From the NCBI GenBank assembly GCA_026418015.1, contig JAOACE010000021.1, positions 1 through 64,000 on the forward strand: a DNA stretch of 64,000 nt, written 5' to 3'. This DNA is from Leptospiraceae bacterium (GTDB taxonomy: Bacteria > Spirochaetota > Leptospiria > Leptospirales > Leptonemataceae). Shown in pieces: positions 1,925 through 55,860 of the stretch; the stretch's first letter is position 1, and each line of letters starts with the position of its first letter. Made by a program: the position numbers and the translations under genes. Under the pieces are notes generated by a model, which saw nothing but the letters and a program-made list of their open reading frames with translations, was not told the DNA's origin and searched no databases.

Positions 1925-2713
1925 ATGGATTTAAAAGATTTATTACGTCAATGGAATGTAGAATCTCTTCAAAAAAACTTACAAAAAGAATTTGATAAAT
2001 TACTTTATAAAAAATTTACTCATAAATTTTTAGAATCTTTGTATGAATATACAGAGCCAACCATAGAAGGCATAGAAAATATACCAAAACATGGACCAAC
2101 CTTAGTGATCCCTAACCATAGTGGTATTTTAGCATTAGATGCATTAGTTTTACAATATGTTATCATGAAACAAGTAAAGCGTTTTCCTTATACTATGAGT
2201 CATAACTTTTGGCATAGCCAACCTTTTTTTAAATATTCTTCGGAAAAGTTAGGTTATATTCCTCAGGATTTTAAAGCAGCAGTTAAATTACTAAAAGAAA
2301 ACAAATTATTGGTTTTATTTCCCGAAGCAGAAGAAGGAAATTTTAAGCCAAGTATATACATGTATCGTTTACAAAGGTTCAACCCTGGTTTTATTTCTCT
2401 TGCATTATTAACTAACGCAACCATTGTTCCTACTTGTATTATTGGGGCAGAAGAAGCAAACATAAACTTGGGGTATATCTATTTAGAAAAATCCAACGTT
2501 AAAGTACCACTGCCATTGAATTTAATTCCTTTTCCTGTAAAATGGAAAATCTTATTTTTAAAACCTATTGATTTAAGTAAATACAACAAATCCCAAGCAA
2601 AAAACGTCGAATTTTTGCAAGAAGCAGCACAAATCATAAGGATGAAGATACAACATAGAATTCACATTGAATTATTGAATCGTGGAATTTTAAAATACCT
2701 TGTTGATGGATAG
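1925..2713 (+). CDS. Lysophospholipid acyltransferase family protein (PlsC/LPLAT)
   Basis: This is a predicted membrane-associated acyltransferase that moves an acyl chain to a glycerol-phosphate, lysophospholipid or related acceptor. The family's first block appears as NHSGILALD, with the wider His-to-Asp spacing of the MGAT-like LPLAT group. The FPE block appears as FPEAEEG. Start choice: a TTG at 1913 would add four residues, but the ATG at 1925 fits better with the upstream promoter-like element. It is the first gene of a compact operon and overlaps the following CBS-domain gene. The exact substrate cannot be told from sequence. Confidence 0.8.
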   Translation: MDLKDLLRQWNVESLQKNLQKEFDKLLYKKFTHKFLESLYEYTEPTIEGIENIPKHGPTLVIPNHSGILALDALVLQYVIMKQVKRFPYTMSHNFWHSQPFFKYSSEKLGYIPQDFKAAVKLLKENKLLVLFPEAEEGNFKPSIYMYRLQRFNPGFISLALLTNATIVPTCIIGAEEANINLGYIYLEKSNVKVPLPLNLIPFPVKWKILFLKPIDLSKYNKSQAKNVEFLQEAAQIIRMKIQHRIHIELLNRGILKYLVDG

Positions 2714-3212
2714 TTATATGAGCGAAATAAGAGAAATTGATTTAGAATATGCGAAAAAGGTTATTGAGAGAAGTGAACGTCTGTTAAAAGCAACTGTGGA
2801 TGATGTAATGACAAAAAATGTCATCACTGTTGATTATGATGATCCAGCATCTAAGGCAGCAAGAATTATTCTTGAAAATGGTTTTTTAAGCTTATTAGTT
2901 ATGAAAGAGGGAAAACCTTTTAACACAATCAGTATTTTTGAACTATTGCGGTTGGGCTACGAAGAAACCTTTGATAAAAATAAAGATTATCTAACGACCA
3001 AGGTAGGAGAATTGGTTCAAAATAAGAAATTTTATTATTTACCTTCGGGAACTTTGTTAAGAGAAGCGATAAATTTTATGATGGAAAGAAAACTCAGAAC
3101 TATACCAATTATTACGAATCAAGTAGTAAATGGCGTTTTATCGATTGTCGATATGGTACAGTGGTATCGATTGAATCATGAGGAGGTTTTGATTGGAAAA
3201 AAACCCCATTGA
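2706..3212 (+). CDS. Two-CBS-domain protein
   Basis: Two CBS motifs fill the protein: the first around residues 30-85 (beginning VDDVMTKNVITVDYDD) and the second around 100-160 (beginning KVGELVQNKKFYYLP). Paired CBS domains form a Bateman module that usually binds adenosyl ligands and acts as an energy or ligand sensor. No catalytic domain is fused, so it probably regulates a partner. It overlaps the acyltransferase stop if the ATG at 2706 is used. The ATG at 2718 is an alternative and would begin just after that stop. The downstream HNH gene starts inside its 3' end. Confidence 0.8.
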   Translation: MDSYMSEIREIDLEYAKKVIERSERLLKATVDDVMTKNVITVDYDDPASKAARIILENGFLSLLVMKEGKPFNTISIFELLRLGYEETFDKNKDYLTTKVGELVQNKKFYYLPSGTLLREAINFMMERKLRTIPIITNQVVNGVLSIVDMVQWYRLNHEEVLIGKKPH

Positions 3213-3516
3213 GCCATATCCTTTTTTTTCTTATGGTCAGGAATGGATCAAACAAGAAAAAGATAAAGCAAAAAAATTAAAAAAAACTTCTTGGTGGAGA
3301 AAAAAGACTGCAAGTGGAATCTGTTATTATTGCAAGAGGAAATTTAAACCAAATGAATTAACAATGGATCATTTGATCCCTTTATCTCGAGGCGGAAGAT
3401 CAACAAAAGAAAACTTAGTTCCCTGTTGTAAAGAGTGTAATTCAAAAAAGAAGTATTTACTCCCCATCGAATGGGAAGAATATATGAATCAAATCCGTTC
3501 GAAAAAAGAATCATAA
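3193..3516 (+). CDS. HNH endonuclease family protein
   Basis: A 107-residue protein with an HNH fold. A zinc-knuckle pair C44-x2-C47 comes first, then the metal/catalytic segment MDHLIPLSRGG (D59, H60), N74, and a second Cys pair C79-x2-C82. Translation starts at TTG 3193, which is supported by a full AGGAGG at 3181-3186 six bases upstream. It overlaps the CBS gene by 20 bases and is probably translationally coupled to it. Stand-alone small HNH proteins of this type may be nicking or repair nucleases, and the biological role is unknown. No restriction methyltransferase is nearby. Confidence 0.8.
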   Translation: MEKNPIEPYPFFSYGQEWIKQEKDKAKKLKKTSWWRKKTASGICYYCKRKFKPNELTMDHLIPLSRGGRSTKENLVPCCKECNSKKKYLLPIEWEEYMNQIRSKKES

Positions 3517-3532
3517 AAAATTTAGCAAATTG

Positions 3533-3556
3533 AAAGAATTGATTTTTAAATTCTTT
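3533..3556. other. AT-rich hairpin after the HNH gene
   Basis: AAAGAATT (3533-3540) pairs perfectly with AATTCTTT (3549-3556) across an 8-base loop. It follows the HNH stop codon. There is no T-run, so the function is uncertain: a weak transcript end or chance in AT-rich DNA. Confidence 0.3.
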
Positions 3557-3635
3557 ATATTCAATATCAAAAATTTTCTTTTAATTTATCCAAAAATTTA
3601 ATATAAATTTTATTAAAAGGCATATTAAATAGAAT

Positions 3636-4145
3636 ATGAAGAGACAACAATTTTTTACTCATAGTGAATGTATTACATCGATAAATATAACACCATTTCA
3701 TTATGCATATTTGATATATCTAACAGAAAATAGGTTTCATGGTAATTTAACTAGGACAATAGAATATTTATTAAAACGATATTTAACTTATCTTTATAGG
3801 ATTAGTTTAGCACCAGAGAAGAGAACATTAACAGCGAGCTATCAACCGAGGACAAAAAATTATGTAGTTAGGAAAATCAGCATACAGCCAACGTATTGGG
3901 GGAAGTTGTATGAGTTGAGGTATTTATTAGGGTATTCGATAAGTTATGTATTACGTATTATGCTGGACTGGGAAATGCAAGAGGAGGGGATACCGATTGA
4001 GCCAATAGTAATAAAGCCGCAATTAGTACAAGAGGATGAGGAGATACATTCACGGATACAAGTAGGGAATAATTATTCATGTTATAATAGGGTAAGTCAT
4101 AGGAATTTAGAGGTTTATAGTGAGTTTTCGTGTCCGGCAGCGTGA
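3636..4145 (+). CDS. DUF1564-like hypothetical protein, GAG-rich codon use
   Basis: A 169-residue soluble protein. The central part (about residues 75-115) has a pattern of Tyr-Trp, then a Leu-rich helix, then Leu-Gly-x-Ser followed by another helix ending in a Trp-Glu. From memory this resembles the DUF1564 family, which is multicopy in Leptospira; the family has no known function and the match needs a profile search. Glu codons are about 10 GAG to 4 GAA and Arg is often AGG, unlike the GAA-rich neighbours. The gene is flanked by very AT-rich DNA with hairpins. It ends in a Cys-Pro-Ala-Ala tail. A transferred or lineage-specific origin is possible. Confidence 0.55.
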   Translation: MKRQQFFTHSECITSINITPFHYAYLIYLTENRFHGNLTRTIEYLLKRYLTYLYRISLAPEKRTLTASYQPRTKNYVVRKISIQPTYWGKLYELRYLLGYSISYVLRIMLDWEMQEEGIPIEPIVIKPQLVQEDEEIHSRIQVGNNYSCYNRVSHRNLEVYSEFSCPAA

Positions 4146-4162
4146 ATTATTTTGATTTTGTA

Positions 4163-4191
4163 TTGACATTATTATAATATAATTATATTTA
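4163..4191 (+). promoter_or_regulatory. Possible sigma-70 promoter upstream of fliE
   Basis: TTGACA at 4163-4168 and TATTTA at 4186-4191 are separated by 17 bases. The start of fliE is about 130 bases away. A perfect TATAAT also lies at 4309-4314, only 4 bases before the fliE ATG, so either could be used. Confidence 0.4.
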
Positions 4192-4209
4192 TTTATAGAA
4201 TTATATTAT
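4174..4209. repeat. 11-bp perfect inverted repeat
   Basis: ATAATATAATT (4174-4184) and AATTATATTAT (4199-4209) flank a 14-base loop and overlap the promoter-like element before fliE. It could be an operator or a hairpin ending the preceding gene. All-AT composition makes chance likely. Confidence 0.3.
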
Positions 4210-4318
4210 TATCACATTTATCCCATATCATATTGTAAATCATTTATTTTTTGCATTTTTTTGTATCCTTCTAACATTTTTTTCTATAAAATTTTCCGTT
4301 TTATACGATATAATTAAC

Positions 4319-4705
4319 ATGAAGATTTTTTCCTATAGTGGTGTACAGTTTCCTTCTGGTAATCCAAAGGTTTTTGGTGCAGAAAAGGTTTCTCCGTTAA
4401 AATTAAATACAAATCACGAGAAACATATGCAAATAACGCAAAAACCACCTTTAACAGACATCGTACCAGAAAATGAACGATTTGCATCGAATTTCACTCA
4501 AACTTTAAATCAACTCTTAGGTAGTGTAGAGAAATTGTCCAATCAGTCCGACGATTTAACAAAAAAAGCTGTTTATGATCCTGATAACGTTGATGTCCAT
4601 GAAATCATGATAGCTTCCCAAAAAGCACGCTTTGCATTAAACTTAACAAAAACTATCATAGATGGTTCTATCAGAGCTTATAAAGAATTAACTTCTGGTA
4701 GATAA
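4319..4705 (+). CDS. fliE: Flagellar hook-basal body protein FliE
   Basis: FliE links the MS ring to the proximal rod and is among the first proteins exported by the flagellar machine. The C-terminal half shows the family signature: a HEIMIASQKARFALNLTK stretch followed by a helix ending AYKELTSGR. At 128 residues it is slightly longer than usual (about 100-110) because of a variable N-terminus. It sits just upstream of fliF. The usual partners flgB and flgC are not next to it. There is no Shine-Dalgarno sequence, and a perfect TATAAT ends 4 bases before the ATG. Confidence 0.88.
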   Translation: MKIFSYSGVQFPSGNPKVFGAEKVSPLKLNTNHEKHMQITQKPPLTDIVPENERFASNFTQTLNQLLGSVEKLSNQSDDLTKKAVYDPDNVDVHEIMIASQKARFALNLTKTIIDGSIRAYKELTSGR

Positions 4706-4825
4706 TACTAAATAAATTTTAAGTAAAATTTTTGTAGAAATTTTCTATGAATATCAAAAAAATTCTGTACAAAAATAAAAACCTTCTGTTAAGTTGTAAT
4801 TTAAATTTCATTTAAGGGTGTATTT

Positions 4826-6514
4826 ATGCCAGAAGGTTTAAAAAATATATTTAATAAATTGGTTGAGGTTTGGAATAAATTAGATACTACGAAAAAAATC
4901 ACTTTGGGAATTGTTTTGGCAATCGTTGTTGGAGCGTTTGCCTTCATTGGAAGTTATTCTAAAAAACCTGCAATGGAAGTGTTATACGACAATTTAAGTG
5001 CATCGGACTATGCAGCAATCACAAAATTCTTAGAAGCAAGTGGTTATGAATGGAAAGGCACGGGAACATCAACCATCTACGTAAATGGTTTAAAAAGACA
5101 AGAAATCATCACAAAACTTGCTCAAGAAAATTTGATCCCAGCGGGAGTAGAGGGTTGGGAAATTTTTAATATGTCTCGATGGGACGAAACTACTTTTGAT
5201 AAAAACGTAAAATTACATCGTGCCATTAAGGGCAGTTTAGAGCAAATGTTGATGACCTTAGACTTTGTTAAATCAGCAAGAGTAGAGCTTGCAATTCCTC
5301 AAAGAAATAACTTTTTAACAGATACTGAACCAGTAAAAGCTTCTGTGGTTTTAACATTAAAACCTGGTGTAGAAACAATCACTCGCAAACAAGTAATGGG
5401 AATCAAAAATTTGATCTTTCGAGCTGTTCCTAACCTAAAAAGAGAAAATATCACCATTACAGATAATAACGGAAAAGAATTTGTTGAACCAGACGAAATT
5501 GACGAAGAACAAAGAAAATTAGAAATCGTAGAAAAGAAAAAAGAAATCGAAGAGAAAGAACGAAGAAAATGGTTAAACGAAATTCAACAGAGCTTACATG
5601 AATTCTATACCAGTGATCGTATTTCTATCATTAGAGTTGCTCTTACCATAAACTGGGACGAAGTAAAAGAAAAACAACATTTAGTAGAACCCGTAGAGGC
5701 AGAACCAGAAAATCCAGAAACCCCATATCCAGACAGAAAATTAATGCCAGGTGGTACATTGATAATTTCTGAAAATGCACGAAATGAACGTTTTCGCGGA
5801 AATGGTTTTACCCCAGGTGGACCGACTGGAACTGAACAAGAATTACCACCAGGTTATAGAGATTTGGATTATCAACGAGCAGAATATGGAAATAACGATG
5901 TAATAAGAAACTATGATTACAATAGAATAGAAAAAGAAATTAATAGGCAGCCTTGGGAAGAAAGAGCTCGTTCTATTGCAGTAGCAGTAGATGGAAAATG
6001 GATCAAAAAAGGCATTAAAGAAGACGGTTCTGGATATATTCGTGAATATATTCCACCAACCAAAGAAGAGTTAAAGACCATTGAAAAGCTTTTAAAAGCA
6101 TCGATTTTATACAAAGCTTCGAGAGGGGATCAAATTGTGGTAGAACATTTACAAAAAGATCGAACAGCACAATTCGAAAAAGAAGACGAGGAATTAAGAC
6201 AAAAACTCATGATGCAAAGATTGTTGATCGTATCTGGAATTTCTATTGTTGCATTTTTCTTGTTATATTTACTCTATAGAGCTATCAAAAACGAAATAGC
6301 AAGAAGAAGACGATTAAGAGAAGAAGAATTAGCTGCACAACAACAGTTGATGAGAGAAGCAGCACTTCGTGTTGCAGACGAAGGTGCAGCAGAAGTAGAA
6401 CTTTCTATCGATGAAAAAGCAAGAAGAGAACTATTAGAAAATGCAATCAACCTTGCGCGCGAAAAACCTGACGAAGTAGCGAAATTACTAAGAACATGGT
6501 TAAACGAAGAGTAG
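4826..6514 (+). CDS. fliF: Flagellar MS-ring protein FliF
   Basis: FliF forms the MS ring in the inner membrane, the base on which the flagellar motor is built. Residues about 24-44 are the first membrane span. They are followed by the ring-building motifs, including the KKPAMEVLYDNLSASDYAAI segment. A second span lies near residues 467-490. The charged C-terminal tail, ending in LRTWLNEE, is the FliG-binding region. At 562 residues the length is normal. An AAGGG precedes the ATG by 7 bases. The usual next gene, fliG, is missing here: the following gene is a convergent radical SAM gene one base away. Confidence 0.95.
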   Translation: MPEGLKNIFNKLVEVWNKLDTTKKITLGIVLAIVVGAFAFIGSYSKKPAMEVLYDNLSASDYAAITKFLEASGYEWKGTGTSTIYVNGLKRQEIITKLAQENLIPAGVEGWEIFNMSRWDETTFDKNVKLHRAIKGSLEQMLMTLDFVKSARVELAIPQRNNFLTDTEPVKASVVLTLKPGVETITRKQVMGIKNLIFRAVPNLKRENITITDNNGKEFVEPDEIDEEQRKLEIVEKKKEIEEKERRKWLNEIQQSLHEFYTSDRISIIRVALTINWDEVKEKQHLVEPVEAEPENPETPYPDRKLMPGGTLIISENARNERFRGNGFTPGGPTGTEQELPPGYRDLDYQRAEYGNNDVIRNYDYNRIEKEINRQPWEERARSIAVAVDGKWIKKGIKEDGSGYIREYIPPTKEELKTIEKLLKASILYKASRGDQIVVEHLQKDRTAQFEKEDEELRQKLMMQRLLIVSGISIVAFFLLYLLYRAIKNEIARRRRLREEELAAQQQLMREAALRVADEGAAEVELSIDEKARRELLENAINLAREKPDEVAKLLRTWLNEE

Positions 6515-6533
6515 TTTACCTACCTTCGTAACC
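6498..6533. other. Imperfect hairpin between convergent fliF and radical SAM genes
   Basis: GGTT-AA-ACGAAG on the left pairs with CTTCGTAACC on the right, with a 2-base bulge and a 14-base loop spanning both stop codons. There is no T-run on either strand, so it is at best a weak bidirectional transcript end. Confidence 0.3.
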
Positions 6534-7832
6534 GATTACATCCATAAAAGCACTAACAGAAAATACAGCTTTTCCTCTACCTGGTTCTCCATATCCTGGA
6601 GGAACAGGTAATTTATATTTTTCGAAAGTTCTTTTCCATATAGTTAATAATTCAAGAAAATATCTTAAAGGAGGCTTTTGCTGATTTCCTAGTGTTGTAT
6701 AAGGTTCTGGACACCAAGTAGTAAAGCGCGGTACTACACCATGACTCATAAAAAAATCTAAACCTTCTGCAGTAGAGTGAACTGCTTCTTTCACAGAAGA
6801 AAATCCATAAGGCTTTGCTAGTTCTACCCCACCAACAAAATTGGGAATTACGTTTGATGGACCAAAAATCTCTACTGATTCAACAATTCTTCGAATCCAA
6901 TTATCTCTTCCTATAAAGCGCTCTTTACCTGGACAAAGAATGGAAAAAAGCCTTTTATCCCATACTTCGAAATTCGGATGATAGATTTTTATTCCTACTT
7001 CTTTAAACCTTACTAGATCTTTTTTCTCCCATGCTTGTACGACCATTTTACCAATCCATCGATTCGGGAAATGCTTTTCGATGGCTTCTGCATATTGAAA
7101 GTAAAAATCTTGTTCATTTTTGTTTTGTAGTTCTGTTATTACAGATCCTCCCGTTATCGTGTATGCTTTTGCTATGTTATCTTCTTGATCGATCCAAGAA
7201 AGAACTTCGAGGATATCTTCGATGCTTTTGATTCCAGTATAAGGTCTTTTGAAATTTTTTTGTTGTCTCCAATTGTGGTTGATATCACAAAATGCGCATT
7301 CTTCGTCTTTTCCAAAATATTGACAATTTCGAAAAACCGTAAGATAAATTAAATATCCCCATTCGATGACTGGTGCAATTTCATTAGGATTTTTTCCATT
7401 AGATGTTTTATAGCGATACCAACTTGGAACCGGAGGAAATTCTACTTTTCCTAAAACTGTATCATTAAGCTTTAAAACAATCAGATTTTCTTCGTTTGTA
7501 GTGACATAATAAGGCGAATTTGGGTCAATTCGAACTGATATAACTGTTGGTAAAAGATTAAAATATCCTTCAGAAATTTTTATTTCTTCTGGTGCTTTAA
7601 ATCGATATTCTTCGGGTTGATCTTTTAATGGTACGTGATCAAACGTAAAAATAAAATAATCTTTTGTCTTGTATGTATGATTTTCTAATGCTTTTGTATC
7701 GAACCTTAATCCTAATCGTAAAATATCTTGTTTGATAATTGCTTCGATGGGAATTTCTCTATAAACTTCTACAAAATTTTCTAAGGTTTCTAATCTGGTT
7801 ATTTCTTGATCAATTTGATTCATAAAAGACAT
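6516..7832 (-). CDS. Radical SAM family protein with atypical CX8CX2C motif
   Basis: A 438-residue protein in which C170, C179 and C182 form a Cx8Cx2C cluster motif instead of the usual Cx3Cx2C. It is followed by a conserved-looking TITGGSVI segment (about residue 225) that would correspond to the SAM-binding GGE-type motif. About 160 residues precede the cluster, with no recognised domain. The C-terminal part is Pro- and Gly-rich. The SAM family is inferred from these motifs and the TIM-barrel-like pattern; the substrate is unknown. The start could also be the nearby Met at residue 4. It is convergent with fliF and has no functional neighbour. Confidence 0.7.
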   Translation of the reverse strand: MSFMNQIDQEITRLETLENFVEVYREIPIEAIIKQDILRLGLRFDTKALENHTYKTKDYFIFTFDHVPLKDQPEEYRFKAPEEIKISEGYFNLLPTVISVRIDPNSPYYVTTNEENLIVLKLNDTVLGKVEFPPVPSWYRYKTSNGKNPNEIAPVIEWGYLIYLTVFRNCQYFGKDEECAFCDINHNWRQQKNFKRPYTGIKSIEDILEVLSWIDQEDNIAKAYTITGGSVITELQNKNEQDFYFQYAEAIEKHFPNRWIGKMVVQAWEKKDLVRFKEVGIKIYHPNFEVWDKRLFSILCPGKERFIGRDNWIRRIVESVEIFGPSNVIPNFVGGVELAKPYGFSSVKEAVHSTAEGLDFFMSHGVVPRFTTWCPEPYTTLGNQQKPPLRYFLELLTIWKRTFEKYKLPVPPGYGEPGRGKAVFSVSAFMDVIGYEGR

Positions 7833-49209: not shown

Positions 49210-49725
49210 ATGAAAGAAACTATAGATACACAACTCGATAAAGAATCAGAAAATAGGCAATTTCGAGAAACGCAGTTTTTGGTTTTCGAAAGTGCCAATA
49301 ACCTCTATGGCATAGATATTCTAAAAATAACAGAAATATTAAAGCCTGTACAAGTAACAAGATTACCCAATGCAGAGAATTTCGTATTAGGAGTAATTAA
49401 TCTAAGAGGGAATATAGTACCTGTAATCGATATAAGAAAAATTTTAAAAAATGAGTATACAGAATTAACAAATTTTAGTAGAATTATTGTTTCGAATATT
49501 TATAATAAAAATTTAGGATTATTAGTGGAAAGGGTATTGGAAGTAGTAACCTTACGCGAAGATCAAATCGAAGGGGGAGAGATAAAAAACTTTTCTGAAA
49601 ATTATATAGAAGGTGTGGGAAGAAGTAAGGATAAGTTATTTTTGATTTTTAATTTACCATTATTAGTAGAACAATATAAACCAAAAGAGTTAAACCAAAC
49701 GGAATTAGAAGTATATGATAGATGA
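49210..49725 (+). CDS. cheW: Chemotaxis coupling protein CheW
   Basis: CheW links methyl-accepting receptors to CheA. The protein contains TQFLVFESANNLYGIDILKI (about residues 22-41), RLPNAENFVLGVINLRGNIVPVIDI (about 55-80) and a C-terminal GRSKDKLFLIFNL motif. At 171 residues it is a normal CheW. Its stop codon overlaps the cheA start, so the two are translationally coupled. It is the first gene of the cheW-cheA-cheB-cheY set; no receptor gene is adjacent. Confidence 0.94.
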   Translation: MKETIDTQLDKESENRQFRETQFLVFESANNLYGIDILKITEILKPVQVTRLPNAENFVLGVINLRGNIVPVIDIRKILKNEYTELTNFSRIIVSNIYNKNLGLLVERVLEVVTLREDQIEGGEIKNFSENYIEGVGRSKDKLFLIFNLPLLVEQYKPKELNQTELEVYDR

Positions 49726-52700
49726 AAAATATTTAGAACTATTTTTGGACGAAGTTACAGAACATATTGATGATTTAAACCGTAGCTTATTAGAGTTAGA
49801 ACAAGATAAAGAAAATCCAGAAATTATTAACGAGATTTTTCGCGTTGCTCATACATTAAAATCCTCTGCTGGTTTTGTTGGATTAGAATATCTATCCCGC
49901 TTAGCCCACAGGATGGAGGATTTATTTCAATTAATCAAAGATAAAAAAATACAAGTAAATACAGAATTGATGAATTTACTTTTTAGTTGTTTGGATGCAA
50001 TAAAAAAAGCAGTTGCTAATGTTCAAGATAATAAAGACGAAGATAAGGATGCTTTGAATGAATTAGTTTATCAAATTGATCAATTCGTAGAATATGAATT
50101 AAAATCAAGACCGCAAGATATTGAACCAAAAAAAGAAGAAGTTAAAAAAGAAATTCCGTCTACTGAAGAGATTCCTGAACAGAAAGTACCTAAAATCGAA
50201 TTAGAAATATCCGAAGAAGAAAAAAAACAACTATTAGAATTGATTGCTCCACAAGACCATGTATATGTTGGTCATGTATTGATTGATTCCGATGCTTCGA
50301 TGAAAAATCTTCGGCTTTTACTTATCTATAATAGATTAGCTAGAATTACTTCTGTGTTTAAATTAGAGCCCACAATTGATCAATTAGAAAAAAACTCAAA
50401 CATTGATAAACTAAGTTTTGTTATTTATGGTAATATTTCGAAAGATCAAATCGTGAGATTATGTCAGATTGATCTTGTAGAAGAAATTTCTGTAAAGGAA
50501 GTTGAATTAAAAAAATCAGCTATTGTCGATGTAACATCTAAAATACCCGAAAAAGCTCCAACCCAACAAACTGCTACTGTTCAAAAAAAACAAGAAAAAG
50601 ACGTTCAAGATTTATCAGAAAATATCATTAAATCGAGAAATATAAAAGTAGATTCGCGAAAGATTGATTATATCATTAATAATGTAGGTGAATTGGTAAT
50701 CACAAACTCAGGGTTACAAAAAATTTACGAAGATCTCTTAGAAGAATATGGAGAAAGTCAAATTATATCAGATTTGCGTTCCAAGATTGATCAAGCGATA
50801 CGAATAGCGAGAGAATTACAATCTGGTGTAATGAAGATGCGGATGATGCCCATTGGTATTGTCTTTCAGCGTTTTTTTAGGCCTGTTCGCGATTTATCTT
50901 TAAGCTTAGGGAAAAAAGTAGAATTAAAAATTTTCGGAGAAGATACTGAACTAGATAAAAACATTATTGACTCTTTGAACGATCCTTTAATGCATTTGAT
51001 TCGTAATGCTATTGATCATGGTATAGAACCGCCAGAAGAAAGGTTAAAAAAAGGGAAACCAGAAGTTGGAACAGTAATATTAAGATCCTACCAAAGTGGA
51101 AATCATATTTTTATCGAAGTTCAAGATGATGGACGTGGTTTAAACAAAGAAAAAATTTACGATAAGGCTCTTTCTTTGGGACTTGTAAAGGATAAAGAAA
51201 ATTTAACAGACCAAGAAATATACGAATTTATATTTTATCCGGGTTTTTCTACTGCTACACAAGTAAGTAATGTCAGTGGTCGTGGTGTAGGAATGAATGT
51301 AGTTAAAGAAGTGATCAACGAATTTAAAGGTGCGGTAAAAATTCAAACAGAACCAGAAAAAGGAACAACTTTCATTTTGATGTTCCCATTAACATTAGCT
51401 ATTATTTCTACAATCCATGTAAAAATAGAAAACGAAGAATATGCATTTCCCTTATCAGATGTAGTAGAAACCATACGAATTTTACCATCTCAAATTACAA
51501 AACTACAAGGAAAAAATATCATAAACTTACGTAAAGAAATTGTTCCTATATACGAATTGTCTGTTTTGATGGGATTACCATCGAAGCTAAACGATATTCT
51601 TGTTCTTAAAGAAGAATCTAATGATGATAACTTTAAAAACGAATTCCCTGTTGTAATTACTAGTGTTGCAAACAAGAAAATTGGGTTCATCGTAGAAGAG
51701 ATGATTGGTAAAAAAGAAATTGTGATAAAATCTCTTGATCAAAACTACAAAAATATACCTGGTTTAATAGGTGCTTGTCTTTTAGGAGATGGAAGTATTG
51801 TAATGGTACTTGATGTAAATGGATTAATTGAAATTGCAACAAAAAATTACGAAGAACAACTATCTCTAACCCAAACAAACGAAGAAGTAAGAAAAGCTAT
51901 ACAAAATTATAATAAAAAAGTAGTAGAATTAACAAGAATTACGAAGCATACTAAAAAGAAGGTTATTGTAAACAAAAAAATTCCGGAAACACCTTCGGAA
52001 AAAACAATCGTTGTAGAAACCAAAAAAGAAACTCCAATCCAACAACCTCAAATTCAACAAGTAAACGAAAACATTCCAACTAATGCAACAAAAATTGTAG
52101 AAGTTAACAAAGATGTATTAATAGAATTCGAAAAAGATAAAGAAAGACGAAAGGAAATAGGTTTAAAAGTTTACGAAGACGACGTTAATAATAATGTTAT
52201 CGTAAAAGAAAATAATAAAGAAATTCCTGCATTTGTTGGTAAAAGTACGGATATTAAAAGCTTTTTATCAGAAAAAGATTACGAAAAATTGTATTCCATT
52301 GTTAACTCTGGTATGGTAAACGCGGGATTAGTGCTTTCTCAACTGCTTGGGGTTACCATTGATGTTTCTGTTCCAGAATTCAAAACCATTGAATATCATG
52401 AAATTCAGGAAATAATCAAAGATACAACATATTATAATATCTTTTTAGAAACAACCGGAGAATTCGAATCTCTTTTAACATTATTTTTTGACGAGGAAAT
52501 GGGTATCAATACAGCAGCAGAATTAATGGGAATTCCCGTAGAACAAAGAAACAAAGAGAAAATCGATTTAGAAGATATTAAATCCGTATTGAATGAATTA
52601 ACAAATATTGTTGGATCAAGTCTTTTAAACGAAATTGCAAATAAATCTGGTATGACAATTAAACCAAGTGTTCCAGAGTTTTATATAGTTAACAAAAATG

Positions 52701-52861
52701 AATTAATTCGTTTAATAGAAAATAAAAAACATCCCCACGCGGACGAAAAAATCATTTATATAAGTGCAGATTTTCTTAGAGACGAAACAGAATTATTAGG
52801 AAAATTGCTTTTACTCCCATCTAAACCAAACTTAATCCAATTAATCGAAAAATTAAAATAA
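49715..52861 (+). CDS. cheA: Chemotaxis histidine kinase CheA fused to a CheC phosphatase domain
   Basis: CheA phosphorylates CheY and CheB. Order: HPt domain (1-105) with phospho-accepting H46 in RVAHTLKSSAGF; a P2-like region (180-275); dimerisation domain (from 315); ATPase with HLIRNAIDHGIEPPEE (about 425-440) and GRGVGMNVV (about 522); CheW-like domain (565-705). After a linker with charged and Pro/Gln regions (705-840), a CheC-like domain fills 842-1048. Its second active-site motif S-x3-E-x2-N-x22-P is intact (SVLNELTN to the Pro of PSVP). The first has Asn and Pro at the right spacing, but Ser replaces Glu. At 1048 residues it is far longer than CheA (about 650-700). Confidence 0.93.
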   Translation: MIDEKYLELFLDEVTEHIDDLNRSLLELEQDKENPEIINEIFRVAHTLKSSAGFVGLEYLSRLAHRMEDLFQLIKDKKIQVNTELMNLLFSCLDAIKKAVANVQDNKDEDKDALNELVYQIDQFVEYELKSRPQDIEPKKEEVKKEIPSTEEIPEQKVPKIELEISEEEKKQLLELIAPQDHVYVGHVLIDSDASMKNLRLLLIYNRLARITSVFKLEPTIDQLEKNSNIDKLSFVIYGNISKDQIVRLCQIDLVEEISVKEVELKKSAIVDVTSKIPEKAPTQQTATVQKKQEKDVQDLSENIIKSRNIKVDSRKIDYIINNVGELVITNSGLQKIYEDLLEEYGESQIISDLRSKIDQAIRIARELQSGVMKMRMMPIGIVFQRFFRPVRDLSLSLGKKVELKIFGEDTELDKNIIDSLNDPLMHLIRNAIDHGIEPPEERLKKGKPEVGTVILRSYQSGNHIFIEVQDDGRGLNKEKIYDKALSLGLVKDKENLTDQEIYEFIFYPGFSTATQVSNVSGRGVGMNVVKEVINEFKGAVKIQTEPEKGTTFILMFPLTLAIISTIHVKIENEEYAFPLSDVVETIRILPSQITKLQGKNIINLRKEIVPIYELSVLMGLPSKLNDILVLKEESNDDNFKNEFPVVITSVANKKIGFIVEEMIGKKEIVIKSLDQNYKNIPGLIGACLLGDGSIVMVLDVNGLIEIATKNYEEQLSLTQTNEEVRKAIQNYNKKVVELTRITKHTKKKVIVNKKIPETPSEKTIVVETKKETPIQQPQIQQVNENIPTNATKIVEVNKDVLIEFEKDKERRKEIGLKVYEDDVNNNVIVKENNKEIPAFVGKSTDIKSFLSEKDYEKLYSIVNSGMVNAGLVLSQLLGVTIDVSVPEFKTIEYHEIQEIIKDTTYYNIFLETTGEFESLLTLFFDEEMGINTAAELMGIPVEQRNKEKIDLEDIKSVLNELTNIVGSSLLNEIANKSGMTIKPSVPEFYIVNKNELIRLIENKKHPHADEKIIYISADFLRDETELLGKLLLLPSKPNLIQLIEKLK

Positions 52862-52866
52862 ATTTT

Positions 52867-53916
52867 ATGAAGTTGTTAATAGTAGATGATTCTCCTCTTG
52901 CCAGAGCAATCATTGGAGATCTTTTAAAAAAATTGGATTTTATTACGCAGATTGATACGGCAAGAAATGGGAAATCTGCTTTGGATATGTTACAAAATAA
53001 CTCTTATGATTTAATTATTCTAGACGTAGAAATGCCCATTATGAATGGGCTTAAGTTTCTCGAAGAGAAAAAAAATATTCATGATACTACTCCTACTATA
53101 ATGCTATCTTCTTTAACCAAAGAAGGTTCAGAAATCACCTTAAAAGCATTGGAGTTAGGTGCAATCGATTTTATACCAAAACCAACAGGTAATCAATATT
53201 CTTTCGATAATATACAAGAAGAGTTGTATCAGAAAATTCGAAATGTTTACAATGATTTTATTTTACGAAAAAAAGATACGAATAAAAAATCAGAATATGT
53301 ATCTTCTGTCTCTATTTATCAAATTTCTAGAAAACTAAGTGAATTCGAGATTGTATTGTTTGGTAGTTCTACCGGTGGACCCAGAACTTTGGTAAATATT
53401 CTAAAAGATATACCGAAAAATTTTCCTTTACCGATTGCAATTATTCAACACATGCCAGAATTTTTTACTTTTACGTTAGCAAGTCGGTTAAACCAAATCG
53501 CGAAATTAAAAGTATTCGAAGCAGAACAAGAAGAAATCCTAAAACCAGGCAGTATAGTCGTTGCTAAGGGAAATAAGCATCTTTTATTCGAACGTTTACA
53601 AGATAAAACCTTTAAAATTCTTTTAGATGATAGTCCCAAAATTCATGCAGTAAGACCGTCTATTGATAAGACATTAGAAAACTTGGTAAATATCACCAAA
53701 GGTAGAACGATTGCAGTAATTCTAACTGGGATGGGTAAGGATGGAATAGAGTCTTTAAAACTATTGAAAAAACATGGTGGATTTGTAATTGCACAAGACG
53801 AAGAAACAAGTACAATTTTTGGTATGAATAAACGTGCTATAGAAGAAAATGTTGTTGATGTAGTATTACCCGATTACAAAATAGCTGATTATTTAACAAA
53901 AATGAATGAATTTTAG
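52867..53916 (+). CDS. cheB: Chemotaxis response regulator/methylesterase CheB
   Basis: CheB removes methyl groups from receptors when phosphorylated. The receiver domain (residues about 1-120) has D53 in IILDVEMP and a SSLTKEG segment. The C-terminal methylesterase domain starts near residue 160 with GSSTGGPRTLVNIL (catalytic Ser), IIQHMPEFFTFTLASRLN (catalytic His) and LTGMGKDGIESLKLLKKHGG (catalytic Asp). At 349 residues it is complete. It is 5 bases after cheA. A cheR gene is not in the window. Confidence 0.95.
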   Translation: MKLLIVDDSPLARAIIGDLLKKLDFITQIDTARNGKSALDMLQNNSYDLIILDVEMPIMNGLKFLEEKKNIHDTTPTIMLSSLTKEGSEITLKALELGAIDFIPKPTGNQYSFDNIQEELYQKIRNVYNDFILRKKDTNKKSEYVSSVSIYQISRKLSEFEIVLFGSSTGGPRTLVNILKDIPKNFPLPIAIIQHMPEFFTFTLASRLNQIAKLKVFEAEQEEILKPGSIVVAKGNKHLLFERLQDKTFKILLDDSPKIHAVRPSIDKTLENLVNITKGRTIAVILTGMGKDGIESLKLLKKHGGFVIAQDEETSTIFGMNKRAIEENVVDVVLPDYKIADYLTKMNEF

Positions 53917-53985: not shown

Positions 53986-54345
53986 ATGGCAAGGATATTA
54001 GTAGTTGATGATGCAAAATTCATGAGGACATTAGTTAAAGATGCATTGACATCCCGCGGACATGTAATCGTAGGTGAGGCGGAAAACGGAAATCAAGCAA
54101 TTGAAATGTACGAGAAATTAAAACCAGATTTGGTAACGATGGATATTACCATGCGAGAAAAGGATGGCTTGGAAGCTGCTGCAGAAATTTTAAAAAAGGA
54201 CCCTAATGCACGCATTATCATGGTAACAGCATTAGGACAAGAAGATTTATTAGCTCGTGCGATAAAAATGGGTGTAAAAGATTTTGTAGTAAAACCATTT
54301 CCACCAGAGCGATTAATTCAAGCAACAGAGAAAGCATTATCATAG
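53986..54345 (+). CDS. cheY: Chemotaxis response regulator CheY
   Basis: CheY binds the flagellar switch when phosphorylated. The 119-residue receiver has D8 and D9, phosphorylation site D53, T81 and K103, all in the expected order. GGAG precedes the ATG by 6 bases. The position after cheB, and the CheC-type phosphatase fused to CheA in the same operon, suggest that this CheY is the substrate of both activities. Confidence 0.94.
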   Translation: MARILVVDDAKFMRTLVKDALTSRGHVIVGEAENGNQAIEMYEKLKPDLVTMDITMREKDGLEAAAEILKKDPNARIIMVTALGQEDLLARAIKMGVKDFVVKPFPPERLIQATEKALS

Positions 54346-54372
54346 CTTTAACTTTAAATATTTAAATAGTCC

Positions 54373-55152
54373 GTGGGAACAACTTATACCTCGAATGATC
54401 ATCTATTATTAGAAGAAGAATTTATTATTAAATGGAAGGGACCCAATGGCGAAATGGAAGGTCCCTTATATGTTTTATGGCAATTAATCGAATCTTATCA
54501 AGTAGATATATTCGAAGTCTCTATACATCGCATCACAGAAGATTTTTTAAATTTTATCAAAAAGGCAAAAGAATTAAAAATTGAGCTTGCATCCAGTTTC
54601 GCTTTAATGGCATCTAAGTTATTATATTACAAAAGTAAGGCACTTTTGCCAGATCCCGGATTCGAAGACGAAGAACAAGAAAAACTCCCCCCCGAAATCG
54701 TACAACAATTATTAGAATACAGAAAATTTCAACAAGCAGCAGAAGTACTAAAAGAAATCAAAGAACTATCCGAAGGTGTATTTTCGCGCCAGAATGATCA
54801 AACATTAGTCGAAATAGAAGAAAGTTATAATATTAATGATTTAATCCAGGCCTATATTAATTTTCTTAAAAGAAAAGAAATTAGCCAAACCCAAAAAGAA
54901 AAACACTTAGAAATCAACCTAGAAAATTTAACTGTCGAACAAAAGATAGAAGATATTCGCAAAATATTAGAAAATACTACCCAATTTGCTTTTCATGAAC
55001 TTTTCGAAAATCCCTATAATATCTCTGTGTTTGAATTCATTGTTGTTTTCTTAGCAATATTAGAATTAGCACGCTTAAACGAAATCATCATCGAACAAAA
55101 AGAGATTTTTGGACCAATTTATATTTTTAAAAAATCCGTTACTGTTCGATAA
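54373..55152 (+). CDS. scpA: Segregation and condensation protein ScpA
   Basis: ScpA is the kleisin subunit of the SMC condensin complex that compacts chromosomes. The N-terminal WKGPNGEMEGPLYVLWQLIE (residues 17-36) and the ASSFALMASKLLYYKSKALLPDP segment match the family. The C-terminal winged-helix region has FEFIVVFLAILELARLN. It starts at GTG 54373, as no upstream ATG fits and the conserved region begins near residue 15. It is 259 residues, 15 bases before scpB. Confidence 0.9.
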   Translation: MGTTYTSNDHLLLEEEFIIKWKGPNGEMEGPLYVLWQLIESYQVDIFEVSIHRITEDFLNFIKKAKELKIELASSFALMASKLLYYKSKALLPDPGFEDEEQEKLPPEIVQQLLEYRKFQQAAEVLKEIKELSEGVFSRQNDQTLVEIEESYNINDLIQAYINFLKRKEISQTQKEKHLEINLENLTVEQKIEDIRKILENTTQFAFHELFENPYNISVFEFIVVFLAILELARLNEIIIEQKEIFGPIYIFKKSVTVR

Positions 55153-55167
55153 TAATATTGATTCTAT

Positions 55168-55860
55168 ATGGACATAGAAAAAACTAAACATATGAGTAGT
55201 AATGATTTTGATAATAATTTCGAAAAAAATGAAGATTTAGGCGAAATAAAAATAAAAGTTCAGAACATAGAGGATGTAAATGTTCCCGAATATAGAGATT
55301 TAGATCCAGAAGAAATGGATTATTATCGAGGTCTTTTAGAAGCAATTTTGTTTTTGGCAAATGAACCTCTGTCTGTTTCTATTTTAGCAAGACAAATCCA
55401 ATTAGACAAAACCAATACCAGAATACTGCTAGATTCCTTAATGGATGAATATCTAGAAAGAAATAGTGGAATTATTCTTAAAGAAATTGCTGGTGGATAT
55501 AGGTTTGTTACATCAGAAAAGTATGCAGATGAGTTAAAAAAAATCTTTAAGCCTAAAAGTAATGAAAAACTTTCTCGTTCAGTATTAGAAACATTAGCAA
55601 TTATTTGTTATAAGCAACCTATTACCTTACCAGAAATAGAAGAAATACGAGGTGTTAATAGCAGAGCAATGGTATCTACATTATTACAAAAGAATTTGAT
55701 CAAACCACAAGGATATAAGCAGGTTCCCGGAAGACCAACACTTTATGTCACAACCAAAGAGTTTTTGATCAAGTTTAACCTAAGTTCTTTGGCAGATTTA
55801 CCTCCATTAAAGGACTTAAAAGAATTACCGTTAGATGATTTAGAAAATATAGAAGAATGA
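55168..55860 (+). CDS. scpB: Segregation and condensation protein ScpB
   Basis: ScpB pairs with ScpA and SMC. The protein has two winged-helix domains: the first around YYRGLLEAILFLANEPLSVS (from about residue 51), the second with SRSVLETLAIICYKQPITLPEIEEIRGVNS (about 132-161). A short acidic N-terminal stretch (about 45 residues) precedes the domain. At 230 residues it is normal. scpA and scpB form an operon. Confidence 0.92.
   Translation: MDIEKTKHMSSNDFDNNFEKNEDLGEIKIKVQNIEDVNVPEYRDLDPEEMDYYRGLLEAILFLANEPLSVSILARQIQLDKTNTRILLDSLMDEYLERNSGIILKEIAGGYRFVTSEKYADELKKIFKPKSNEKLSRSVLETLAIICYKQPITLPEIEEIRGVNSRAMVSTLLQKNLIKPQGYKQVPGRPTLYVTTKEFLIKFNLSSLADLPPLKDLKELPLDDLENIEE

Follow-up and report, generated by a model that had tools for sequence, protein, structure and literature searches.

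A CheA kinase with a C-terminal CheC-type domain, a putative tethered CheY-P phosphatase, in a Leptospiraceae genome

The window, a stretch of 64,000 nucleotides from a Leptospiraceae bacterium, contains a chemotaxis gene cluster in which the cheA reading frame continues, after the usual kinase domains and a long linker, into a CheC domain. An earlier note, made from the sequence without database searches, had described a CheA with a C-terminal CheC at 49715-52861 (residues about 842-1048), with cheB and cheY in the same cluster. Profile searches, PDB sequence matches and the predicted fold bear out the fusion, and Pfam matches identify both neighbouring genes. The features are as follows.

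49210..49725, + strand: cheW, coupling protein, with an 11-base overlap with cheA (Pfam CheW, 2.5e-33)
49715..52861, + strand: cheA-cheC fusion gene, 1048 aa, open reading frame from ATG to TAA (Pfam/NCBIfam)
49730..50005, + strand: P1/Hpt, residues 6-97, phosphorylatable His46 within HTLKS (Pfam Hpt, 1.4e-18)
50261..50500, + strand: P2 CheY-binding domain, residues 183-262 (Pfam P2, 3.7e-9)
50636..51394, + strand: P3 dimerisation and P4 ATPase domains, residues 308-560, N and G boxes present (Pfam, 7.9e-16 and 7.5e-18)
51413..51832, + strand: P5 CheW-like domain, residues 567-706 (Pfam CheW, 4.2e-24)
51947..52261, + strand: linker, residues 745-849, of low confidence except for a helix at 800-822 (AlphaFold2 full-length model)
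52262..52858, + strand: CheC domain, residues about 850-1048, two alpha/beta repeats (profile, PDB sequence, fold)
52262..52528, + strand: CheC half 1, with a dead site 1 (S861 in the Glu position, N864, P887)
52568..52855, + strand: CheC half 2, with an intact site 2 (S957, E961, N964, P987)
52867..53916, + strand: cheB, receiver plus methylesterase (Pfam CheB_methylest, 4.8e-54; Response_reg, 5.6e-25)
53986..54345, + strand: cheY (Pfam Response_reg, 3.3e-30), found at the same position in relatives
54373..55860, + strand: scpA and scpB (Pfam SMC_ScpA, 5.5e-30; SMC_ScpB, 1.9e-54)

The kinase portion has the P1, P3, P4 and P5 domains of CheA in order, with a phosphorylatable His and the ATP-binding boxes; P3 (H-kinase_dim) occupies residues 308-375 and P4 (HATPase_c) residues 423-560. 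Across 22 full-length relatives, H46, N431, D472, G473 and G522-G526 are invariant. The linker has pLDDT values below 50 at 745-802 and 816-849 in the full-length AlphaFold2 model, which is consistent with a flexible tether that contains a single helix; the pTM of that model is only 0.31, so the relative placement of its domains carries no meaning.

Several lines of evidence identify the tail as CheC. First, PF04509 matches the fusion protein at 6.4e-9 in two stretches (36.1 bits against a cut-off of 22), the CheX profile stays below threshold, and the NCBIfam model CheC_Thtogales spans residues 851-1047 (9e-13 for the whole protein) with a score that falls well short of the equivalog cut-off. 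Second, the best PDB sequence match of the fusion protein is Thermotoga maritima CheC, 1xkr (E 1.4e-5). Third, residues 840-1048, modelled with AlphaFold2 from 22 related sequences, fold with a pLDDT of 86.3 and a pTM of 0.83, and Foldseek ranks CheC and FliY structures highest for this model (E about 1e-12). VIA-align superposes the model on 1xkr with a Z of 23.3 and an rmsd of 2.5 over 197 residues, and gives lower Z scores for FliY (19.2), FliM middle domains (15–17) and CheX (12–16). The match to a CheA-CheC architecture is far beyond chance, and the profile search and structure prediction that the earlier note called for thus both went its way: a CheC match above cut-off and a predicted CheC fold remove the two objections it had raised against itself. 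A FliM/FliY-type switch domain was considered as the identity of the tail and is ruled out: the Pfam scan of the fusion protein finds no FliMN_C (SpoA) domain, and half 2 has the intact ExxN motif that a FliM middle domain would not.

The tail resembles a stand-alone CheC in its two-repeat fold and in a site-2 motif with the right spacing, ExxN(x22)P at E961, N964 and P987, but it is fused to CheA and falls short of the usual pair of ExxN sites, Ser861 standing at site 1. Both halves read as the earlier note had them: S957, E961, N964 and P987 intact and correctly spaced in the second, Asn and Pro in place with Ser for Glu in the first. Seven stand-alone CheCs were compared, from Clostridium, Enterococcus and, in five cases, the same phylum, and every one of them has ExxN at both sites. 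In having one ExxN per chain on a CheC-type fold, the tail is also like CheX (T. maritima 1xko, Borrelia 3hzh), which however is shorter and stands alone, and which aligns with a Z of 14–15.6 against 23.3 for CheC.

This asymmetry extends to the relatives. In a first alignment of 25 fused domains, columns S118, E122, N125 and P148 (window S957, E961, N964 and P987) are invariant. When the alignment is enlarged to 59 rows, a truncated copy of the window's own gene (L068_574) being excluded, only 3 of 206 columns are fully invariant in 59/59 fused domains, and these are E961, N964 and P987. At site 1, Glu and Asn never occur together in the 59 proteins; the position of residue 861 holds Ser, Val, Leu and others, with Glu in five cases, all of them lacking the Asn. 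By these alignments, all relatives examined have lost site 1 and keep Glu, Asn and Pro at site 2. Fused copies dead at both sites may be too divergent for the profile to recruit, so the lack of double losses weighs less than the invariance seen among the sampled proteins.

The earlier note did not know of this arrangement as established, and on this point it was mistaken. In a survey of 13,673 CheA proteins, Berry, Andrianova and Zhulin described F1-class CheA proteins fused to CheC/CheX in class Leptospirae and proposed a possible dual kinase/phosphatase function (PMC10782961); the observation in the window is thus an independent rediscovery of an architecture and a hypothesis published in 2023. 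The protein described here has the same CheA-CheC domain order and the same proposed dual role, its nearest named relatives are Leptospiraceae metagenome-assembled genomes (MAGs; for example KatS3mg129, 79% identity over the best segment), and its genome groups with Leptospiraceae/Leptospirales MAGs. The available part of the 2023 account contains no active-site analysis, tree or occurrence outside Leptospirae. Its sample is given there as the RefSeq genomes of GTDB R95, which may explain why fused lineages of other classes, probably mostly metagenome assemblies, were missed. Because architecture and hypothesis were already in print, what is gained here is a useful but incremental addition: a dead site paired with an invariant one, fusions in further classes, and a probable single ancient origin.

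The reading we favour, at a probability of roughly 0.7, is that this CheA carries on its C-terminal tail a CheC-type CheY-P phosphatase with one site, tethered at the receptor array, an enzyme activity that we infer. CheA in the array would phosphorylate the CheY of the operon via P1 and P2, and half 2 of the tethered CheC would place Glu961 and Asn964 in the phosphorylation site of CheY, hydrolysing CheY-P; the CheY of the cluster is the probable substrate of both activities. The flexible linker at 745-849 would make it possible for the tail to reach CheY-P. Making and destroying the signal would then share one location, with the two activities fixed at 1:1, much as Escherichia coli CheZ is placed at the array by binding CheA-short, where its displacement alters the fall of the CheY-P signal along the cell (PMC7696710). 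That likeness lies in a phosphatase held at the receptor array via CheA; the E. coli pair relies on reversible binding of an unrelated phosphatase, whereas the window has a covalent fusion. Rhodobacter sphaeroides CheA3, another protein of the CheA type, likewise has a phosphatase specific for CheY (PMC2829493), but P1 and P5 are its only CheA domains and the phosphatase region is in the linker that joins them, while the CheA of the window is complete and its putative phosphatase domain is C-terminal. At the level of sequence, the dual role is supported by the strict conservation of site-2 catalytic residues and kinase residues, the former arguing that catalysis matters in the fused tail. It would also be favoured by the apparent age of the fusion, its vertical retention and its position, mostly adjoining cheB and cheY.

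Two points count against this mechanism. The first is that Bacillus subtilis CheC is a weak phosphatase, whose activity is only 6% that of FliY; it acts mainly through CheD binding, which outweighs its phosphatase activity (PMC3513319). One CheD is encoded in the window's genome, and CheD is present in 43/48 genomes of the class. The tail could accordingly be mainly an adaptation device, a minor phosphatase whose CheY-P-dependent binding of CheD would pull CheD off the receptors in the manner of B. subtilis CheC, and the CheC-CheD complex 2f9z is among the closest folds to the tail model. We consider this alternative unlikely but the most serious of those weighed; the only invariant columns of the fused domain are catalytic and do not form a surface patch.

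The second point is that most of the phosphatase activity could come from two stand-alone CheX-like proteins of the window's genome, each of which has an ExxN motif (GEVGN and MEIIN). With these present, the fused domain has competitors for that role, and the idea that it is the sole phosphatase in the genome was rejected. Should the stand-alone CheX proteins do the hydrolysis, the tail might act without catalysis, as a docking site for CheY-P or a switch module, like the FliM middle domain. Such a role would suit both the shared fold (Z about 16 for FliM middle domains) and the loss of the site in half 1. To our knowledge, FliM-type domains are without the ExxN motif; site 2, by contrast, is invariant in 59/59 fused proteins, and a docking role is improbable, more so than one centred on CheD. 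The same genome has FliM and a FliM/FliY-like switch protein (L110 4503-5561) without ExxN; the latter has D-x-x-N instead in its second half, which makes a FliY-type phosphatase role unlikely for it.

The comparison with cheA of related spirochaete genomes, also suggested in the earlier note, finds the fusion across the class and in other classes. Relatives were found by an alignment-based scan of genome contigs; a scan of the same kind of material with the single protein returned none. The full-length domain lies in a long CheA frame in 8/8 genomes of the sister family and in 19/22 of the window's own family, and in the remaining families of the class the CheC tail has diverged further. In L039, L042 and L097, from such families, the first half of the tail is hardly recognisable and two receiver-domain proteins come after CheA-CheC, the protein of L039 reaching 1351 aa. 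Among 393 genomes of the phylum searched, the domain also occurs in other classes, mostly with E values of 1e-43 to 1e-62 and in frames mostly of about 1000–1190 aa. Domain scans of fetched loci confirm CheA followed by CheC in at least 12 other-class families (f8, f9, f12, f23, f26, f27, f28, f31, f35, f39, f41 and f46), the evidence for f9 being a fragment with P5 and CheC; f8, f9, f26, f27 and f28 have more divergent versions (E 1e-14 to 1e-29). That two adjacent genes were read as one through an assembly or annotation error is refuted by this conserved single frame: a separate cheC does directly follow cheA in Clostridium weizhouense (L066), but the same unbroken frame recurs in dozens of independent genomes from many families, and the likelihood of an artefact is negligible.

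Two trees bear on the origin of the fusion. In a kinase-core tree of 60 fused and 26 unfused CheAs, made by a quick method and with some long branches and a root that is not fixed, the fused CheAs lie on one side of a branch with an SH-aLRT of 96. In a CheC tree, the fused CheCs lie apart from stand-alone CheCs with a support of 93. A single ancient fusion followed by vertical descent is the simplest reading of these trees, though not proof, and the adjacent cheA and cheC of C. weizhouense, with cheC directly 3' of cheA, show a possible route to it. On a broader and more tentative view, to which we give slightly less than even odds, the fusion is an ancient design found phylum-wide in Spirochaetota and not an oddity of Leptospirae. 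The joining of CheC would have been accompanied by the loss of site 1, so that a single chain at the polar array would combine the kinase with a putative phosphatase, and each kinase chain would have just one phosphatase site.

An active tail would mean that one molecule, at one place, both makes and removes the chemotaxis signal. The ratio of kinase to phosphatase would thereby be fixed, and the CheY-P gradient would be shaped along cells that are very long and carry motors at either end. The fusion offers a clean genetic test, by E961/N964 mutants, of how important a co-localised phosphatase is in spirochaetes.

Variants of the architecture and of its surroundings accompany these loci. Two relatives of the same family have an additional CheA, likewise with a CheC tail, which is divergent (L101 245-3238 and L102 3303-6323); this CheA adjoins at least two receiver-domain proteins. 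In two further loci, CheA-CheC proteins of 1202–1203 aa carry two P2 domains (L059 2986-6594 and L063 2989-6594); duplication of P2 is general in Borreliales according to Berry et al. 2023 (PMC10782961). The window's genome has a second chemotaxis cluster (L108, G000:C13:104000-118000, 2699-7504), in which a CheA of 832 aa without P2 or CheC is followed by its own CheW, CheB and CheR. The order cheW-cheA(CheC)-cheB-cheY-scpA-scpB is common to the window and most fused loci. The chromosome segregation genes scpA and scpB lie directly 3' of cheY in most of them (L038-L090), so that a link between chemotaxis and segregation genes (window 53986-55860) is conserved across classes.
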